Shown: piece by piece, positions 24,549-31,353 of the stretch
Position numbering within the stretch: the stretch's first letter is position 1
Layout: every line of letters starts with the position of its first letter
NCBI GenBank assembly: GCA_029213165.1
Contig: JARGNO010000030.1
Location: forward strand, 1 to 44,391
Length of the DNA stretch: 44,391 nt
Source of the DNA: Minwuia sp.
GTDB lineage: Bacteria > Pseudomonadota > Alphaproteobacteria > Minwuiales > Minwuiaceae
Reading direction: 5' to 3'
Made by a program: the position numbers and the translations under genes
The notes under the pieces: generated by a model
Told to the model about the DNA's origin: nothing
What the model saw: only the letters and a program-made list of their open reading frames with translations
Database searches by the model: none

Positions 24549-25022
24549 TCAGTTCATCGGAATCAGGTTGAGATCCTGGTTGGTGCGGTCGAACAGCCTT
24601 ATGGCCGCGTCGGTGGCTCCTTCATACCGTTCCGTCCGGGCATCCGGCGGGGCCACCTGCTGATGATGACTGGAATGCGGGGTGTAGAAGGTCTCGGTGG
24701 TGTTGCTGCCCCGCGACCGCCGGGTGCTGTAATAGACGTCCAGCCTGTCGTGACAGCCATCGAACTTCCAGACCGAGCGCACACGGACGAAGATCCTTGT
24801 CCTGATCGGTGGGCGAGCCTGGCGCTGGGCCAGCTTGCGCGAAATGGCATCCGCCAGAAAGCTGCCGTTCAGGGCGCAAGGCGCGCCGCCTTCGGTGTAG
24901 ACGGTAACATCGGGGCGATAGGTTCCACCCTGCTGCGCCATTGATGCCGTCACCATCACCGTCAGCGCGAAAGCGAGCAGTCCCGTCAGGCCGGTCAGCA
25001 ACGGATTGAAACGTGCGTTCAT
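24549..25022 (-). CDS. Secreted protein of unknown function
   Basis: A 157-residue protein with a signal peptide (hydrophobic residues about 8-27, likely cut after SMA or AQQ). The mature part has only two cysteines, C49 (GGAPCALNG) and C90 (KFDGCHDRL), likely a disulfide, and a basic, serine- and histidine-rich middle. No family is recognised. The ATG at 25022 is chosen because the signal peptide follows directly; the open frame reaches 25214 but would run into the divergent MFS gene. It is convergent with the phosphatase gene (15 bases apart). Confidence 0.68.
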   Translation of the reverse strand: MNARFNPLLTGLTGLLAFALTVMVTASMAQQGGTYRPDVTVYTEGGAPCALNGSFLADAISRKLAQRQARPPIRTRIFVRVRSVWKFDGCHDRLDVYYSTRRSRGSNTTETFYTPHSSHHQQVAPPDARTERYEGATDAAIRLFDRTNQDLNLIPMN

Positions 25023-25041
25023 CGCTGAAGCTTGCCTGCGG

Positions 25042-25081
25042 CATGTCGCATTTGGCAATGGGGGGCTGTGCCATGTGGCAT
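25042..25081. promoter_or_regulatory. Direct repeat in intergenic region upstream of MFS gene
   Basis: CATGTCGCAT (25042-25051) and CATGTGGCAT (25072-25081) are spaced exactly 30 bases apart, about three helical turns, and each contains ATG-N3-CAT. It lies between two divergent genes and may be a regulator site; no regulator is obvious. Confidence 0.3.
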
Positions 25082-25159
25082 GGCTCCGTCCGGTGCAGCG
25101 CGCTATAACGACCAGCAGTTGATCGCCGGGACAACCGGCGGCGGGTCGAGGAGACGTCA

Positions 25160-26437
25160 GTGAACGGTTCAGATACAGCAGCGCCCGTCGCGGCAGACGG
25201 GGCGGAGCAGACACGCGCGCAATGGATACGCATCATCGTGATCGTGTTCCTGCCTTTCGCGTCGGGCTATTTCCTTTCCTATCTCTATCGCGCCCTGCCA
25301 TCGCTGATCGGTGATCGCGTACGACACGATCTGGCGCTGGATGCCGATGTGCTGGGCCTTGTCGGTGCTGCCTATTTCCTGGCCTTCGGGCTGGCCCAGC
25401 TGCCGCTTGGCATGATGCTGGACCGGTTCGGGCCGCGGCGCTGTCAGTCGGTGCTGCTGCTGATTGCCGCCTCGGGTGCCGTGGTCTTCGGACTGGGTGA
25501 GAATGCCGAGACGCTGGTCATCGGCCGGGCCATGATCGGCCTCGGCTGCGCGGGCGGCCTGATGGGCTCCCTGAAGGCTATCACGCTCTGGTTCCCGCAG
25601 TCGCGCTGGCCGCTGGTCAACGGCTGTCTGCTGGGCCTTGGCGGTCTTGGTGCGCTGACCGCCACGACGCCGGTGGAGTTTCTGCTGGGTGACGTCGGCC
25701 TGGGCTGGCAGGAACTGTTCTTCTACATCGCTGCCGCGACCGTCGCTGCTGCAATGCTAATCTTCGTCGTGGTCCCGGAAAAGCCGGGCAGCACCTCCCC
25801 CATTCCCTTCCGGGAGTTGCTCGGCAGCCTGCGCCGGATCTACAGCAGTCGCTTCTTCTGGCGCATCGCGCCGATTGCGGTGCTGACCATGTCGACCGGC
25901 ATGGCGATCCATACCCAGTGGGCGGGGCTGTGGCTGAAGGATGTGGCCGGATTCGAACAGGCTGGCGTTGCTGTCTATCTGCAGACCCTCTCCATCGCGC
26001 TGACCGTCGGTTTCGTGGCCGGCGGCGTGGTCGCGGATGTTCTCACCCGGCGCGGCGTGCCCCTGGGCATGGTGATGGGGGGCGGGGTGCTGGGCCTGCT
26101 GCTGGCGCAGGGCTCCATCGCCATGGAGGTTGATCCGCAGGCGCATTGGCCCTGGATCCTGCTGGGCCTGAGTTCCAACATCTCCGCCCTGGCGTTCCCG
26201 CTGTTGTGCGGACGCTTCGATCTGAAACTGGCCGGGCGGGTGAACACAGCGCTGAACGTGTTCGTCTTCATCGGCGTCTTCGCCACCGCCTCCGGCATTG
26301 GCTGGGTGATCGACCAGTATCCGCGTACGGTGCTGGGCGGCTATGCCAGCGAGGGGTATCAGGTGGGGCTGCTGACCATCATCGCGGCAGAAGTACTTGC
26401 ATTCCTATGGTTCTTGGTCCCTGACAGGGGAAAGTGA
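25160..26437 (+). CDS. MFS transporter
   Basis: A 425-residue major facilitator with about 12 hydrophobic segments. The loop-2 motif is LGMMLDRFGPRRCQS, and the first segment FASGYFLSYLYRALPSLIGD resembles nitrate/nitrite-porter-like and anion:cation symporter members. The GTG start at 25160 has GAGGAG seven bases upstream. An SDR gene follows after 18 bases, so the transporter may supply or export the substrate of that enzyme. Substrate unknown. Confidence 0.88.
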   Translation: MNGSDTAAPVAADGAEQTRAQWIRIIVIVFLPFASGYFLSYLYRALPSLIGDRVRHDLALDADVLGLVGAAYFLAFGLAQLPLGMMLDRFGPRRCQSVLLLIAASGAVVFGLGENAETLVIGRAMIGLGCAGGLMGSLKAITLWFPQSRWPLVNGCLLGLGGLGALTATTPVEFLLGDVGLGWQELFFYIAAATVAAAMLIFVVVPEKPGSTSPIPFRELLGSLRRIYSSRFFWRIAPIAVLTMSTGMAIHTQWAGLWLKDVAGFEQAGVAVYLQTLSIALTVGFVAGGVVADVLTRRGVPLGMVMGGGVLGLLLAQGSIAMEVDPQAHWPWILLGLSSNISALAFPLLCGRFDLKLAGRVNTALNVFVFIGVFATASGIGWVIDQYPRTVLGGYASEGYQVGLLTIIAAEVLAFLWFLVPDRGK

Positions 26438-26455: not shown

Positions 26456-27244
26456 ATGATTGATCTCAAGGGCCAGGCGGCCATCGTTACAGGATCGGCC
26501 ACCGGCGTTGGTGCCGCCGTCGCGCGGGCATTGGCAGCGGACGGCTGCAATGTCGTTGTCAACTATACCCGCAGCGAGAAGGAGGCGCAGGAGACCGCGC
26601 AGGCCTGCCGCGATCTGGGGGTCGAGGCGATCACGGTCCAGGCCAATGTGGCGGAGGACGCGGACTGCAAGAAGCTCGTCGATGCCGCTGTCGACAAGTG
26701 GGGCAAGCTCAATCACGTGGTCAACAACGCGGGCACGACCAAGTTCGCCGACCAGAACGACCTGTCTGCCCTGACTGCGCAGGATTTCCAGGACATCTAT
26801 GCCGTCAACGTCATCGGCCCCTACCAGATGGCGAAATGGGCGGAGCCGCACCTGCGATCTGCTGGCAAGGCCTCCATCACCAATGTCTCGTCCATCGCGG
26901 GCGTCACCGGTATCGGGTCCAGCATGGCCTATGCGGCGTCGAAGGGGGCGCTGAACACCATGACCATGTCGCTCGCCCGCTCGCTGGGGCCGGAGATCCG
27001 GGTGAACACGATCTGTCCGGGCATGATCCAGTCCCGCTGGCTGGAGAATGGCATGGGCAAGGAGAAGTATGACCAGTTGCTCGCCAACCAGCAGCGGTCG
27101 TTGCCGCTGCAGCGGGTTTCGACACCGGAGGACAATGCGGAGATCATTCTCTGGCTGATCAAGGGTTCCGAACTGGTGACGGGTGAGTTCGTGATGGTCG
27201 ATGGCGGTGCCCACCTCGGGTTCTCGCTGGCCATGGCGCGATAG
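26456..27244 (+). CDS. Short-chain dehydrogenase/reductase
   Basis: A 262-residue classical SDR. The cofactor loop is TGSATGVG (residues 12-19), the NNAG motif is at 90-93, and the catalytic set is N119, S146, Y159 and K163 (AYAASKGAL). The acidic or basic selector after strand 2 is N-Y-T-R-S, which hints at NADPH. The C-terminus ends VMVDGGAHLG, as in FabG-like oxidoreductases. GGGAGG precedes the ATG. It is cotranscribed with the MFS gene. Alcohol or ketone substrate unknown. Confidence 0.9.
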   Translation: MIDLKGQAAIVTGSATGVGAAVARALAADGCNVVVNYTRSEKEAQETAQACRDLGVEAITVQANVAEDADCKKLVDAAVDKWGKLNHVVNNAGTTKFADQNDLSALTAQDFQDIYAVNVIGPYQMAKWAEPHLRSAGKASITNVSSIAGVTGIGSSMAYAASKGALNTMTMSLARSLGPEIRVNTICPGMIQSRWLENGMGKEKYDQLLANQQRSLPLQRVSTPEDNAEIILWLIKGSELVTGEFVMVDGGAHLGFSLAMAR

Positions 27245-27322: not shown

Positions 27323-28063
27323 ATGAAACCGATCCTGCTGCCTGTCGTTGCATTGATGCTGATGGGCCTGGCAAGCTGCCAGACCACCACCGGCGTTCCG
27401 GAGCCGCGGGAAGCCCGGGTGACCGCTGCCGTTGCCGGCACAACGCCCCTGCGCATCGAACTGGACGGCAACTATTGTCTGGTGCCGCGCGGGCGCTATG
27501 CCAATGATTTCGAGGGGCGGATATGGGCGGCATTCGACGCGGCGGGGGGCAATTGGCGCAAGGTCGCCTATTTCATCAGTTGCAGTGACTATCAGGCGAT
27601 CCAGTCCAGCGTCATCCTGAAGCTCGCGGCCGAGGGCGAAGTCTCGGTCTTCATGCCCGATGGCGCGCCGAAGCGGTTCGAGGGCGGTCGGGCGACCTAC
27701 ATCGATGCGATCATCAAGGCATGGGATGACCTTGACGTCACCGAGGATGGCAAGGAGACACAGCGGAAGCTGGAGGAATTCTTCGCGAGCAGGGGGAGTC
27801 ACAAGTCCCGCCGCGTCGAAGGAGATGCCCGGATGGAACTGGTCGGCAGTGATACATATGCCGCCTACTTTCGCCTTCCTTACCGTCACGTGCTGTCCGG
27901 CAGCTCCCGTGACCTGGTTCAGGTCTTCGCCAAGACCGTGGTTGATGGCCTGCAGGTCCAGATTTCCTTCACAACAGACCGCAGCACCCAGGCCGAGATC
28001 CGTGCCCTGGATGTCGTGAAGCGCCTGACCTACGGCCTGTTCGACGAAGAGGCTTCGATTTGA
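27323..28063 (+). CDS. Lipoprotein of the GYC-Cys family, member 1
   Basis: A 246-residue predicted lipoprotein: signal MKPILLPVVALM and lipobox LASC with the lipidated cysteine C19. It shares with the next three genes a G-N-[YF]-C type motif (DGNYC, C52) followed by a second cysteine 35 residues later (C87, FISCSD), probably a disulfide. The rest is mixed alpha/beta without a recognised domain. It is the first gene of a five-gene plus-strand run and starts 78 bases after the SDR gene. Its stop overlaps the next start (TTGA). No named family recognised. Confidence 0.72.
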   Translation: MKPILLPVVALMLMGLASCQTTTGVPEPREARVTAAVAGTTPLRIELDGNYCLVPRGRYANDFEGRIWAAFDAAGGNWRKVAYFISCSDYQAIQSSVILKLAAEGEVSVFMPDGAPKRFEGGRATYIDAIIKAWDDLDVTEDGKETQRKLEEFFASRGSHKSRRVEGDARMELVGSDTYAAYFRLPYRHVLSGSSRDLVQVFAKTVVDGLQVQISFTTDRSTQAEIRALDVVKRLTYGLFDEEASI

Positions 28064-28743
28064 TCCGGACCCTGGTTGGCGCCGCGCTGACGTGTCTTGT
28101 CCTGCTGGGTGTTGCATCGGCGGAGGAAGTGCGGTTTCGGGCGGGTTCCGCGAATTTCGCCTTCGACATGCCAACGGGCTACTGCGATGTGCTGTTTCCC
28201 GGTTCAGCCACTGCGGAGAGCCTGCGGCGTGATCTGGAACTGGTTCGCCAGCGCGGGGTGGACGTGAAGGCGCTGGCGGTACCCTGTGACCGGATCAACG
28301 GGCTTCTGTCGAATGTCCGGCAGGATCACGGCCTGCGCGTGCTCGCCTTCGGTGTCCTGACGCGGGAGGGTGAGGCGATTGCTGCCGATGGAGGTGGTGA
28401 TGTGTTCTGGCAGGCCATTCGCAACAGCGCGCGCTATCTGAACGCCTTTGCGGGTTCCGATGCGGTTCTGGACGTGGTGCGGGAGATCCTGGATCAAAGA
28501 GGGATACCGGCACGGATCGCGGATATCGAACTGTCGACGGAGCAGAACAGGATTGGTGTCGCCGCCGCGGGTGAGCTGATCCGGTCGAGCCGTCATGAAC
28601 CTTTCAACGCGGCGGCGCTCGCCGAACCGCTTGCGGGCGTTTTCCTTGTTACCTCGGTTGTGGAGTTCGATACTGTGCCCGGCAGTACCGCGAAGCTGGC
28701 GGCAGCGCGCGATCTGCGCATGGATCTGAGAGAAATCGATTGA
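28060..28743 (+). CDS. Secreted protein of the GYC-Cys family, member 2
   Basis: A 227-residue protein with an ordinary signal peptide (MIRTLVGAALTCLVLL, cut near ASA-EE) rather than a lipobox. Conserved motif MPTGYC (C42) and a second cysteine at C76 (AVPCDRI), 34 residues apart, as in its neighbours. The start is TTG 28060, supported by AGAGG seven bases upstream and by the absence of another start before the signal peptide. The TTG overlaps the previous stop. Function unknown; probably periplasmic. Confidence 0.7.
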   Translation: MIRTLVGAALTCLVLLGVASAEEVRFRAGSANFAFDMPTGYCDVLFPGSATAESLRRDLELVRQRGVDVKALAVPCDRINGLLSNVRQDHGLRVLAFGVLTREGEAIAADGGGDVFWQAIRNSARYLNAFAGSDAVLDVVREILDQRGIPARIADIELSTEQNRIGVAAAGELIRSSRHEPFNAAALAEPLAGVFLVTSVVEFDTVPGSTAKLAAARDLRMDLREID

Positions 28744-29510
28744 AGCGCTCGGTTGTCAGAGGATTTCTTGCCCTGCTGCTCGGTATCACGGTCGGGTGCC
28801 AGTCCACGTCGTCCGTGCCGCCGACCGCCAGACAGTCCGCTGTCGAGCCGCTTCCGAATGTCGTATCCATGACCCCTGCCGAACTGAGCGGCGACTACGT
28901 CAGCTTTCCGCTGACGGATCATGAGCTGGCCATGAGGCTGCCGGACGGTTTCTGCGTCACCAGCGCGCGCACACCCCTGCACTTGCAGGAGGCTCTGGCA
29001 AGGTTCGATGTCAGTACGCTTGAGATGAAGGTGCTCGCCCTTTCCTGCGCCGCGCTGGAAGGGCAGACGCAATTGGCATTCCCGATTCCGATGGTCGTCG
29101 CGGGACTGATGCGCCGGGAAGGCGTGCCACTGGTCTTCGACGCAGATCTTGGCGAGGACTATGCCCGCATGGTCCGGATCCTGGGGCAGCAGGGCGACAG
29201 CAAGATCCGCGATCTGGCACGCGAGCTGTTCCTGAAGTCGATGGTGAGCAGAATCGAGCGCAGCGGCTTTGCCGTGGGCCATCTGGACATGCGCAGCCGG
29301 AACAACAGGATCCGTCTGGAGGTGCTGGCGGAGGTGCCTGTCGATGGCATTGATGGGAATGTCTGGTACTTCGCCGACTTCCTTGTGGGGCCAGTGGGGG
29401 ACCGGCTGCTGGGGGTCGGCGTTGTGAACGTGGATCTGGTTCCGTCACCGCCCGCAGTTTCACAGAACAGCGAGATGCTGTTCGCCACCCTGCGCCAGGT
29501 CAGGAAGTGA
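28740..29510 (+). CDS. Lipoprotein of the GYC-Cys family, member 3
   Basis: A 256-residue predicted lipoprotein with lipobox TVGC (C20) after a short signal peptide. The conserved motif is LPDGFC (C72) with a second cysteine at C103 (LALSCAAL), 31 residues on. Both this and member 2 then have a strand-like hydrophobic segment followed by REG (GLMRREGVPL here, GVLTREGEAI in member 2). The start is TTG 28740, overlapping the previous stop by four bases with GAGAG upstream. No known family recognised. Confidence 0.7.
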   Translation: MKRSVVRGFLALLLGITVGCQSTSSVPPTARQSAVEPLPNVVSMTPAELSGDYVSFPLTDHELAMRLPDGFCVTSARTPLHLQEALARFDVSTLEMKVLALSCAALEGQTQLAFPIPMVVAGLMRREGVPLVFDADLGEDYARMVRILGQQGDSKIRDLARELFLKSMVSRIERSGFAVGHLDMRSRNNRIRLEVLAEVPVDGIDGNVWYFADFLVGPVGDRLLGVGVVNVDLVPSPPAVSQNSEMLFATLRQVRK

Positions 29511-29512
29511 AC

Positions 29513-30433
29513 ATGCGTATGCCCTTGATCCTGCTTGTTGTTCTTGTGGGCCTGGCGGCTTGCCGTGGTACCACGGACGCGGAAATGGAGCAGCGGCTCT
29601 CCAGAATCGATGATGCCTTGGGGCGCCCCCCGATGACGGGCGTACCGCGGCGGCCTTCCCAGGCTGTACCGCTGGGGGAAAAGGAAGATCCGGCCCTATC
29701 GGCACCGCGACCGGTATCGGAGCCAAGGAAAGTGCAGCGTCCCCCGGGGCCGGTTGCCGCCGCGCCGACCCTTCCCCCGCCGGATGCCGGAACCGGGCGA
29801 AGTGCGCCTGCTGGTTTCACAATCCTGGCCTTCGACGTGGACGGGCAGGAGCATTCGGTTGTCGTCCCTGACGGATACTGCAATCTCTTCGCCGTCAACC
29901 GACCCTTGCCGACCCGACTGGTCGACCGCGTCACGGGCAACAGCGGCGGTCGTTTCCATCCAGACATGATCGCCATGCCTTGCGCTGACATCTACACGGC
30001 GGGGGCAAGGGGACTGCCCACGTCCTTCATCTTCTTCGTCCGCTCGGCGGAAAGCGGTGTGCCGATCGACTATGCGCCGCGCACCCTTGACCATGACTTC
30101 TTTCCGGACAGGTTCGGTCAATTGATTGAGTCCAGCCGCAAGGGGATCGACGCCCAGTGGCAGGCCGTCGGGGCCTTCATGAGGAGCGTCAGCTTCCCGT
30201 CCGACATCAACAGTGGAGGTGTCGAGTTTGATGGAAATACACTTTCGTTCTCCGGGCGATCAGGATTCCGGGTGCGTGGCGAGCTTCGTCAGTTTCGGCT
30301 GGATACAGCCACGTTCCGGCTCGGCACCTTCTTTGCGACCATTGGTGTGACCCGGGAAGCCGCAGCCGGGCTTGATGTCAGCGTACCGATCACTGCGAAT
30401 CAGATCAGACGGTCCCTCAGGGCATCACGATGA
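29513..30433 (+). CDS. Lipoprotein of the GYC-Cys family, member 4
   Basis: A 306-residue predicted lipoprotein with lipobox LAAC (C17). A proline-rich spacer of about 80 residues precedes the domain, as in anchors that cross the periplasm. The domain motif VPDGYC has its cysteine at C123 and the partner at C157 (AMPCADIY), 34 residues later. ATG 29513 is chosen because AGGAA lies seven bases upstream; GTG 29507 would overlap the previous stop and is possible. Its own stop overlaps the ATG of the esterase gene. Function unknown. Confidence 0.7.
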   Translation: MRMPLILLVVLVGLAACRGTTDAEMEQRLSRIDDALGRPPMTGVPRRPSQAVPLGEKEDPALSAPRPVSEPRKVQRPPGPVAAAPTLPPPDAGTGRSAPAGFTILAFDVDGQEHSVVVPDGYCNLFAVNRPLPTRLVDRVTGNSGGRFHPDMIAMPCADIYTAGARGLPTSFIFFVRSAESGVPIDYAPRTLDHDFFPDRFGQLIESSRKGIDAQWQAVGAFMRSVSFPSDINSGGVEFDGNTLSFSGRSGFRVRGELRQFRLDTATFRLGTFFATIGVTREAAAGLDVSVPITANQIRRSLRASR

Positions 30434-31353
30434 AGGTCTTCGGCTTCCTGCTGGTCTGTCTCTGCTTCGTCAGCGGCCATGCTCACGTTGCGCATTCGGA
30501 TGAGATTGCCCATGACGGCAGGACACGCAGTTTCATTGTCGATGTGCCGCAAGGGCTGCAGGCATCGGCCCCGACTGTATTCGTGCTGCATGGCGGGGGC
30601 GGCACGGCGGAGCGGATCCGGCGAACCACGGCACTGCATCAGGTCGGCGCGCGGCAGGGCTTTGTCACAGTCTATCCGCAGGGTGCCGCCAACCAGTGGA
30701 ATGACGCAAGAAATTCGCCCGTCGTCGTCGCGAAGCAGGGGGGTGGTGGCGCTGACGATGTCGGGTTCCTGCGGGCGCTTGTGGCGCATCTTGTCTCGAC
30801 AGGGGTAACCGATCCGGGGCGGGTCCATGTCGTCGGTCTGTCCAATGGCGGCATGATGGCCTTTCGCCTTGCCTGCGAAGCGGCGGATGTCTTTGCGGCC
30901 TTCGTCCCCGTCATTGCCAGTCTTCCCGAACCGGCGGAGCACGACTGTCGGCCAGCGCGGGCGGTTCCGATGATGGTGATGAACGGGACAGTGGACAGGC
31001 TGGTTCCGTGGGATGGCGGGCCTGTGGCGGCAATGTTCCCCGGTGATCGGGGGCGCACATTGTCCACGGCCCGCACGATGGCTGTGTTCTCGGCGCTCAA
31101 CGGTTGCTCCTCCGAGATTCTCGACAGCGTCGGAGGTCCCGGCAGGGATCCGGTGGTGACGCTCAACGTCCATCGCCATCTCGGCTGCAGGGACGATGTC
31201 GATCTGCGCCTCTATGCTTTCGTTGGCATGGGCCACCGCTGGCCCGGCGGCGGTCCGCTTCCTGCCGCCTATGAAGATCTTTTGGGACCCGCACCGCGTG
31301 CCTTTCCGGTCGGGGCCGAGATCTGGTCATTTCTGGCTGACAAGCACCTCTGA
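30430..31353 (+). CDS. Secreted PHB depolymerase/feruloyl esterase-like hydrolase (LpqC family)
   Basis: A 307-residue alpha/beta hydrolase with a signal peptide (MKVFGFLLVCLCFVSG). The oxyanion segment is VLHGGGGTAE (about 52-61), the nucleophile S138 in GLSNGG, the acid D189 in NGTVDRLVPW and the histidine H269 in GMGHRWPGG. This fits the esterase PHB/LpqC group that cuts polyhydroxyalkanoate oligomers or feruloyl esters; exact substrate unknown. The start ATG overlaps the stop of the fourth lipoprotein (ATGA), so it belongs to the same operon. Confidence 0.85.
   Translation: MKVFGFLLVCLCFVSGHAHVAHSDEIAHDGRTRSFIVDVPQGLQASAPTVFVLHGGGGTAERIRRTTALHQVGARQGFVTVYPQGAANQWNDARNSPVVVAKQGGGGADDVGFLRALVAHLVSTGVTDPGRVHVVGLSNGGMMAFRLACEAADVFAAFVPVIASLPEPAEHDCRPARAVPMMVMNGTVDRLVPWDGGPVAAMFPGDRGRTLSTARTMAVFSALNGCSSEILDSVGGPGRDPVVTLNVHRHLGCRDDVDLRLYAFVGMGHRWPGGGPLPAAYEDLLGPAPRAFPVGAEIWSFLADKHL

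Follow-up and report, generated by a model that had tools for sequence, protein, structure and literature searches.

An array of exported proteins found only in Minwuia, with an invariant cysteine pair and a probable Mog1/PsbP-like fold

Positions 1 to 44,391 of contig JARGNO010000030.1 of Minwuia sp. (assembly GCA_029213165.1), here called the window, carry a run of four consecutive genes for exported proteins, designated P1 to P4, with a gene for a secreted esterase directly behind them. We read this locus as a genus-specific tandem expansion of periplasmic accessory proteins of the Mog1/PsbP fold, which would serve as adaptors or assembly factors in the envelope by contact with other proteins; taken as a whole, this reading has in our judgment about an even chance of being right. 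The evidence for it comes from the kinship of the proteins to one another, an invariant pair of cysteines, the predicted structure of P2, and the distribution of the genes among related genomes.

Kinship was assessed by pairwise comparison of family profiles from which the signal peptides had been stripped; as a control, the columns of one profile in each pair were shuffled 100 times. P2 and P3 matched with a probability of 96 and a score of 62.6 (shuffle maximum 21.8), P2 and P4 with a probability of 95 and a score of 56.7 (maximum 20.6), and P3 and P4 with a probability of 74 and a score of 39.2 (maximum 26.0); for each of these pairs, none of the 100 shuffles scored as high. Cross-family matches also link P4 to the P2 proteins of two other genomes, G005 (E 3.5e-5) and G006 (E 1.9e-4), and P2 to the P3 of a third, G008 (E 6.4e-4). 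These profile comparisons show that P2, P3 and P4 share a common ancestor, from which they would have arisen by tandem duplication. The preliminary description of this DNA had claimed such an origin for all four proteins, as something seen directly; the claim stands for P2, P3 and P4, and fails in that form for P1, whose profile scored 24.8 against P2, 16.9 against P3 and 18.8 against P4, values reached by 1, 11 and 3 of 100 shuffles, respectively. In phylogenetic trees each of P2, P3 and P4, and P1 as well, is set apart from the others by a single branch; bootstrap support is only 74 to 89 for the P2 and P3 groups, and long branches meet.

Not counting those of the signal peptide and of the lipid attachment position, every one of the 16 proteins encoded at the locus in the genomes that have it (four P1, five P2, five P3 and two P4) contains exactly two cysteines in its mature chain, 31 to 35 residues apart, and the two fall in aligned columns across the locus proteins. 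In the window, the first cysteine ends the motif DGNYC in P1, TGYC in P2, DGFC in P3 and DGYC in P4, and the second follows 35, 34, 31 and 34 residues later, exactly as the preliminary description had reported. When two cysteines were placed at random in chains of the same lengths, the four spacings differed by no more than 4 residues in just 8.6e-5 of one million trials. Because the periplasm is oxidising, a disulfide is the natural reading, and the pair most likely forms one, joining the end of an N-terminal hairpin to the next strand. Signal peptides, judged by eye rather than by program, agree with the earlier count of three lipoproteins and one ordinary signal peptide: lipoboxes are seen in P1 (...GLASC-Q), P3 (...ITVGC-Q, with a Thr at -3 that is not the commonest residue there) and P4 (...GLAAC-R), and P2 has the ordinary type (...GVASA-EE). 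P2 would thus be free in the periplasm, and P3, P4 and P1 tethered by lipid. In enterobacteria, a lipoprotein that lacks Asp at position +2 goes to the outer membrane; since none of P1, P3 and P4 has Asp there, their putative lipid anchors would, by this rule, probably lie in the outer membrane.

The structural model of P2, made with 12 aligned sequences, has a predicted local distance difference test score (pLDDT) of 77.8 and a predicted template modelling score (pTM) of 0.76. Structure comparison by VIA matched it to CyanoP (Z 8.5 and 8.1), spinach PsbP (8.2 and 8.0), Tsi3 (4luq, 3wa5, 4n7s and 4n80; 7.9 to 8.1), 3lyd (7.9), Mog1 (7.5), MTC28 (7.5), TplEi/Tli4 (5h7y, 5h7z and 4r1d; 6.9 to 7.4) and LpqN (6.9), and further to DcrB (5.7) and the Eag chaperones EagT6, SciW and PA94 (5.0 to 5.8). 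The superpositions extend over 143 residues at 4.1 Å for CyanoP (2xb3, Z 8.1), 129 residues at 3.6 Å for PsbP (2vu4, Z 8.0) and 144 residues at 4.5 Å for Mog1 (1jhs, Z 7.5), and at E≤0.001 Foldseek matched the P2 model to four chains, all from 3lyd and MTC28. Tsi3, LpqN and MTC28 we take to have the Mog1/PsbP fold; DcrB is so described in an excerpt of PMC7716261, and PA0094/1tu1 in an excerpt of PMC4524185. P3 and P4 would share the fold of P2 by homology. The preliminary description had proposed that its account would be undone by unrelated folds, or by the four proteins falling into separate known families; neither was found, though the P2 fold does resemble a known one.

Several observations weigh against our reading of the locus. 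VIA Z-scores of 7 to 8.5 fall in a range that the tool itself calls middling, query-length TM-scores are 0.24 to 0.39 in the top 14 Foldseek rows for the P2 model, and VIA also places BT_1490, PknH and Apa, of unchecked fold class, above Z 7; given these moderate Z-scores and low TM-scores, the Mog1/PsbP-like fold of P2 is well supported but not proven. Proteins of this fold, moreover, do many things, so that the fold says little about function, and the sequence kinship of P1 to P2, P3 and P4 is near the shuffled background. P1 could be an unrelated lipoprotein that shares the cysteine spacing by chance, leaving a family of P2 to P4 only; we consider this doubtful, yet a serious alternative. 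Besides the shuffle results for its profile, it draws on the poor model of P1 (four sequences, pLDDT 42.6), for which Foldseek lists IdmH (E 0.047) and NTF2-like proteins first and DcrB at rank 17. The same low-confidence model, however, has DcrB first by VIA (Z 7.4, 3.5 Å over 90 residues), followed by CyanoP (5.4) and 3lyd (5.3); the predicted order of strands and helices follows that of P2, except that a strand takes the place of one helix; and the best alignment of P1 with P2, although its probability is 14, sets both cysteines in register. The poor model thus hints at the Mog1/PsbP fold for P1 too. Weak as this evidence is, P1 would probably be a fourth paralogue that has diverged very far.

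Each protein served as a query against nine genomes from its taxonomic family, namely that of the source (G000) and eight others; seven of the nine belong to the genus Minwuia and two to other genera. The array is present in five of the seven Minwuia genomes and in neither of the two from other genera, and it occupies a single locus, beside sixA-ppk-ppx (SixA and PPK are names given by eye; the Pfam assignment of the SixA-like protein is histidine phosphatase). Its content reads P1-P2-P3-P4-esterase in G000, P1-P2-P3-P4 in G008, P1-P2-P3 in G004, P1-P2-P3-esterase in G006, where the contig ends beyond P1, and P2-P3 in G005; P1 is thus present in four of the five, P2 and P3 in all, P4 in two and the esterase in two. 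Because a soluble P2 and a lipoprotein P3 (signals again by eye) are kept in all five genomes, with a 4-base overlap of the two genes in every one, we regard P2-P3 as the core pair; it would be the smallest unit, to which P1, P4 and the esterase would be optional additions. The remaining two Minwuia genomes, G003 and G007, gave no array match at E≤0.01; sixA-ppk-ppx has other neighbours there, with no match to the short-chain dehydrogenase (SDR) that flanks the array within the 11 kb taken. In both (loci L044 and L045), SixA-ppk-ppx adjoins a DapD-like gene, named by eye, in place of the SDR gene, so the neighbourhood of the array has itself been rearranged within the genus.

Across the class, a profile search with the P2-P4 alignment hit three of 385 genomes and one with P1 hit two of 385, the source genome included in each case and all of them from this genus; in the rows listed, an alignment query had no more than 6 or 7 candidates scored in any genome, so that distant members could be missed. 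Scanning the genome contigs with P4 gave no distant homologue, and scanning them with the P3 alignment gave four loci, those of G004, G008, G006 and G005. Within these searches, the array is restricted to the genus Minwuia. One further match of P2, on contig 15 of G008 (L025, E 0.0016), was dropped as chance: it falls in the C-terminal region of a different exported protein that has no cysteine pair, and it continues through two stops. Titles and abstract openings of the Minwuia literature make no mention of the array.

Ratios of nonsynonymous to synonymous substitution rates (dN/dS) for the array genes were 0.18 to 0.35 in seven comparisons with G008 and G004 (P1 0.19 and 0.30; P2 0.35 and 0.31; P3 0.29 and 0.29; P4 0.18), and P1 to P4 are therefore real genes under purifying selection. 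Five comparisons with G005 and G006 gave 0.34 to 0.64, at a synonymous divergence (dS) of 1.1 to 2.0 that makes them unreliable. Among neighbouring genes, ABC-F, MFS, SDR, PPK, PPX and TauE gave 0.02 to 0.13 in all comparisons, SixA 0.12 to 0.27, a SpoIIE-type phosphatase 0.21 to 0.23, and the esterase 0.21 (G006 only). P2 is 31% identical to its counterpart in G005 and 28% in G006; the adjacent SDR is 92% identical in G005, and PPK 95% and 94%. The array is under purifying selection, with no sign of gene-wide positive selection, and evolves fast, as does a nearby exported protein from outside the array, encoded at 24552-25214 on the minus strand. That protein is matched in G004, G005 and G008, with dN/dS of 0.36 to 0.42. 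No Pfam family matches it at E≤0.001; its own cysteines follow the pattern GAPCAL...DGC, and it probably starts at an internal ATG ahead of its signal peptide.

The hydrolase at the end of the array had been described as secreted and resembling depolymerases of polyhydroxybutyrate (PHB), and so it proved: it carries a Sec-type signal peptide and exceeds the cutoff of Pfam model PF10503, Esterase_PHB (29 versus 23 bits). Among solved structures, the feruloyl esterase 9j07 is closest to it in sequence (E 1.2e-12), and a putative triad, Ser138-Asp189-His269, is kept in both copies known here (G000 and G006). These matches place it near the family of short-chain polyhydroxyalkanoate (PHA) depolymerases and feruloyl esterases, from which it differs in falling below the cutoff of NCBIfam model NF050058, for type 1 short-chain-length PHA depolymerase (129.3 versus 150 bits). 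The preliminary description had suggested, as one possibility, that the array forms a complex of lipoproteins by which this enzyme is presented or restrained, and had named homologues occurring together with the esterase in other genomes as a finding that would support its account. The esterase does stand right behind the last paralogue in both genomes that have it (with a 4-base overlap in G000, and 2 bases after in G006), and no esterase match at E≤1e-10 occurs without the array among the nine genomes. At that threshold, however, it is missing from the entire assemblies of G004, G005 and G008; of these, G004 and G008 keep the array under purifying selection, and G006 has its esterase in an array that lacks P4. 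Found in only two of the five array genomes, the esterase is dispensable to the array, and an array that does without it speaks against its existing to restrain or present the enzyme, an idea to which we leave only a slight chance. The esterase seems to be an optional passenger, its linkage real but incidental, and it is removed as an explanation for the array.

Our reading of the array as a set of adaptors is drawn by analogy, because relatives of the Mog1/PsbP fold often act by protein-protein contact: excerpts of the literature describe PsbP in photosystem II assembly and stability, Mog1 with Ran, and Eag proteins with effectors of the type VI secretion system (T6SS) (PMC4524185), LpqN with the transporter MmpL3 (PMC7458404), and DcrB with YciB in membrane fluidity (PMC9487459). 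The array proteins would be co-produced from a single, tightly packed operon and would most likely act as protein-protein adaptors or assembly factors in the envelope, with the P2-P3 pair, possibly a hetero-complex, at the core. Alternatively, the cupped sheet might bind lipid or another hydrophobic ligand and contribute to lipid traffic or the homeostasis of the membrane, a role that has been proposed for LpqN and DcrB. LpqN and DcrB are indeed among the structural matches of P2, DcrB tops the VIA list of P1, START-like lipid-transfer proteins appear lower in the VIA list of P2 (Z about 4.2), and LpqN has been studied with a mimic of the lipid trehalose monomycolate (PMC7458404, in excerpt). 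The START rows are weak, however, the proteins belong to no Pfam family by sequence, and the operon contains no lipid pathway gene, so we consider a lipid-handling role unlikely.

A different possibility is raised by Tsi3 and TplEi/Tli4, whose place among the top structural matches of P2 would fit an orphan immunity set, one that neutralises envelope-attacking effectors from neighbouring cells, as those proteins do, with the tandem copies and their rapid turnover following different effectors. The variation in copy number between species and the high divergence already noted for P2 are as this predicts. The array differs from Tsi3 and TplEi/Tli4 in its setting, however: none of the nine family genomes has a T6SS sheath gene (PF05591), and no effector-like or cognate gene was noticed beside the array when the neighbourhood was looked over, effectors not having been searched for. 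The lack of a sheath gene in all nine genomes weakens the immunity reading while leaving room for an orphan role. The adjacent hydrolase, moreover, bears a Sec-type signal peptide, dN/dS is below 0.4 in close pairs, and the exported protein outside the array evolves as fast (0.36 to 0.41). Altogether we find immunity very unlikely, and highly improbable in the specific form of a fast-evolving periplasmic anti-effector array. In that form, disulfide-stabilised proteins of the Mog1/PsbP fold, varying in copy number and all lipid-anchored except for one soluble member, would intercept the envelope-attacking enzymes of competitors in a host where no T6SS sheath gene is found.

In line with the preliminary description, which recognised no named family, the array proteins belong to none at the cutoffs of Pfam or NCBIfam. 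Pfam returned no family for P1 to P4 at E≤1; when all 16 members were searched at E≤10, seven families appeared (best E 0.024), none related to Mog1/PsbP and none above cutoff, and hmmscan gave the DcrB/DUF1795 and PsbP families no match above cutoff. PADLOC returned nothing for P1 to P4 at E≤0.1, and NCBIfam no match above cutoff. Candidates rejected as far below the NCBIfam cutoffs were, for P1, the NigD1/NigD2 lipoproteins (E 0.044, 13.6 versus 60 bits); for P2, TIGR03845 (E 0.0057, 16.6 versus 148 bits) and PRK12702 (E 0.11); for P3, HpaR (E 0.1); and for P4, DipM (E 0.89). Sequence searches of the PDB gave seven matches, the best at E 0.11, of which at least two lie at the lipoprotein signal. 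In a library of viral structures, the two best matches are annotated lipoproteins (E 3e-4 and 6e-4, query TM-score 0.35 to 0.36).

Known envelope proteins of this structural kind offer the closest comparisons. LpqN, MTC28 and CyanoP/PsbP are presumably exported or lipid-anchored, as the array proteins are; these proteins and DcrB resemble the array through the structural match of the P2 model, and they differ from it in that the array has an invariant cysteine pair, is a multi-copy tandem set, and gives no sequence match above cutoff. DcrB, too, is exported or lipid-anchored (PMC7716261, in excerpt). PA1624 of Pseudomonas aeruginosa is a periplasmic protein with one disulfide, and its N-terminal domain has a Mog1/PsbP fold remotely like that of DcrB; set beside the array by description, it differs in having two domains and a disulfide, 110-115, whose cysteines are much closer in sequence than the array's pair (PMC7716261). 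If the predicted fold is right, the array represents a sequence family that is new among envelope proteins of the Mog1/PsbP fold, marked by its invariant cysteine pair and of a structural kind already known, and such proteins can expand as a tandem, content-variable operon within one genus, a result that should be useful rather than startling to specialists in envelope lipoproteins.

Table 1. Genes of the array locus and its flank on the P1 side, in window coordinates
Gene	Position	Strand	Product	Remark
P1	27323..28063	+	lipoprotein, 246 aa, Cys52/Cys87	kinship to the others distant or doubtful
P2	28060..28743	+	soluble exported protein, 227 aa, Cys42/Cys76	core gene, 5/5 array genomes
P3	28740..29510	+	lipoprotein, 256 aa, Cys72/Cys103	P2 homologue; core gene, 5/5 array genomes
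P4	29507..30433	+	lipoprotein, 308 aa (306 from ATG 29513), Cys125/Cys159	homologue of P2 and P3; 2/5 array genomes
Esterase	30430..31353	+	secreted alpha/beta hydrolase, PHB-depolymerase/feruloyl-esterase-like	2/5 array genomes
SDR gene	26456-27244		short-chain dehydrogenase	flanks the five-gene run on the P1 side

Open reading frames for the four consecutive exported proteins were found where the preliminary description had placed them (Table 1). Beyond the esterase lies the SixA-like phosphatase gene, on the opposite strand, and then ppk and ppx. Genes overlap by 4 bases at P1/P2, P2/P3 and P4/esterase. An overlap of P3 with P4 depends on a doubtful GTG start of P4 at 29507, which is probably not the real one: the P4 orthologue in G008 begins at the residue equivalent to ATG 29513, two bases past the P3 stop, and so favours that codon. 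P4 has a Pro-rich linker behind its lipid cysteine. A promoter and terminator scan, which gave no sigma-70-like promoter and four terminator-like sites versus 3.0 in shuffles, is uninformative.

A profile search of 398 genomes across the phylum gave, besides the source genome, five matches at E 0.001 to 0.009, about chance level. Three of these (L050, which is LysM/peptidase-like, L051 and L052) match at a lipoprotein-type signal peptide and were dropped. The other two (L048:1447-2091 and L049:1459-2115; E 0.001 to 0.0025), secreted proteins from two genomes of one other alphaproteobacterial family, were retained on account of their mutual homology, at 31% identity, and of the motif that they bear. 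In common with the array, they have a signal peptide and P-D-G-[FY]-C followed by a second cysteine in the same alignment register; they are unlike them in the spacing, 29 residues, and in having extra cysteines. Searches of Pfam and NCBIfam at E≤1 put neither of them in a named family, and the 3 kb examined for each contain no second copy of the motif. Over the Cys-Cys module, hhalign matched an L048/L049 profile to P2, P3 and P4 with probabilities of 86 to 90, reached by none of 100 shuffles, a comparison that is not independent, as the two proteins were found with that same profile; P1 gave no match to it (probability 0.2). A class search with L048 and L049 hit three of 385 genomes, comprising the L048 gene itself and two short matches at E 0.006 to 0.007. 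The presence of the PDG[FY]C...C module in these two proteins suggests that it is possibly older than the Minwuia array.

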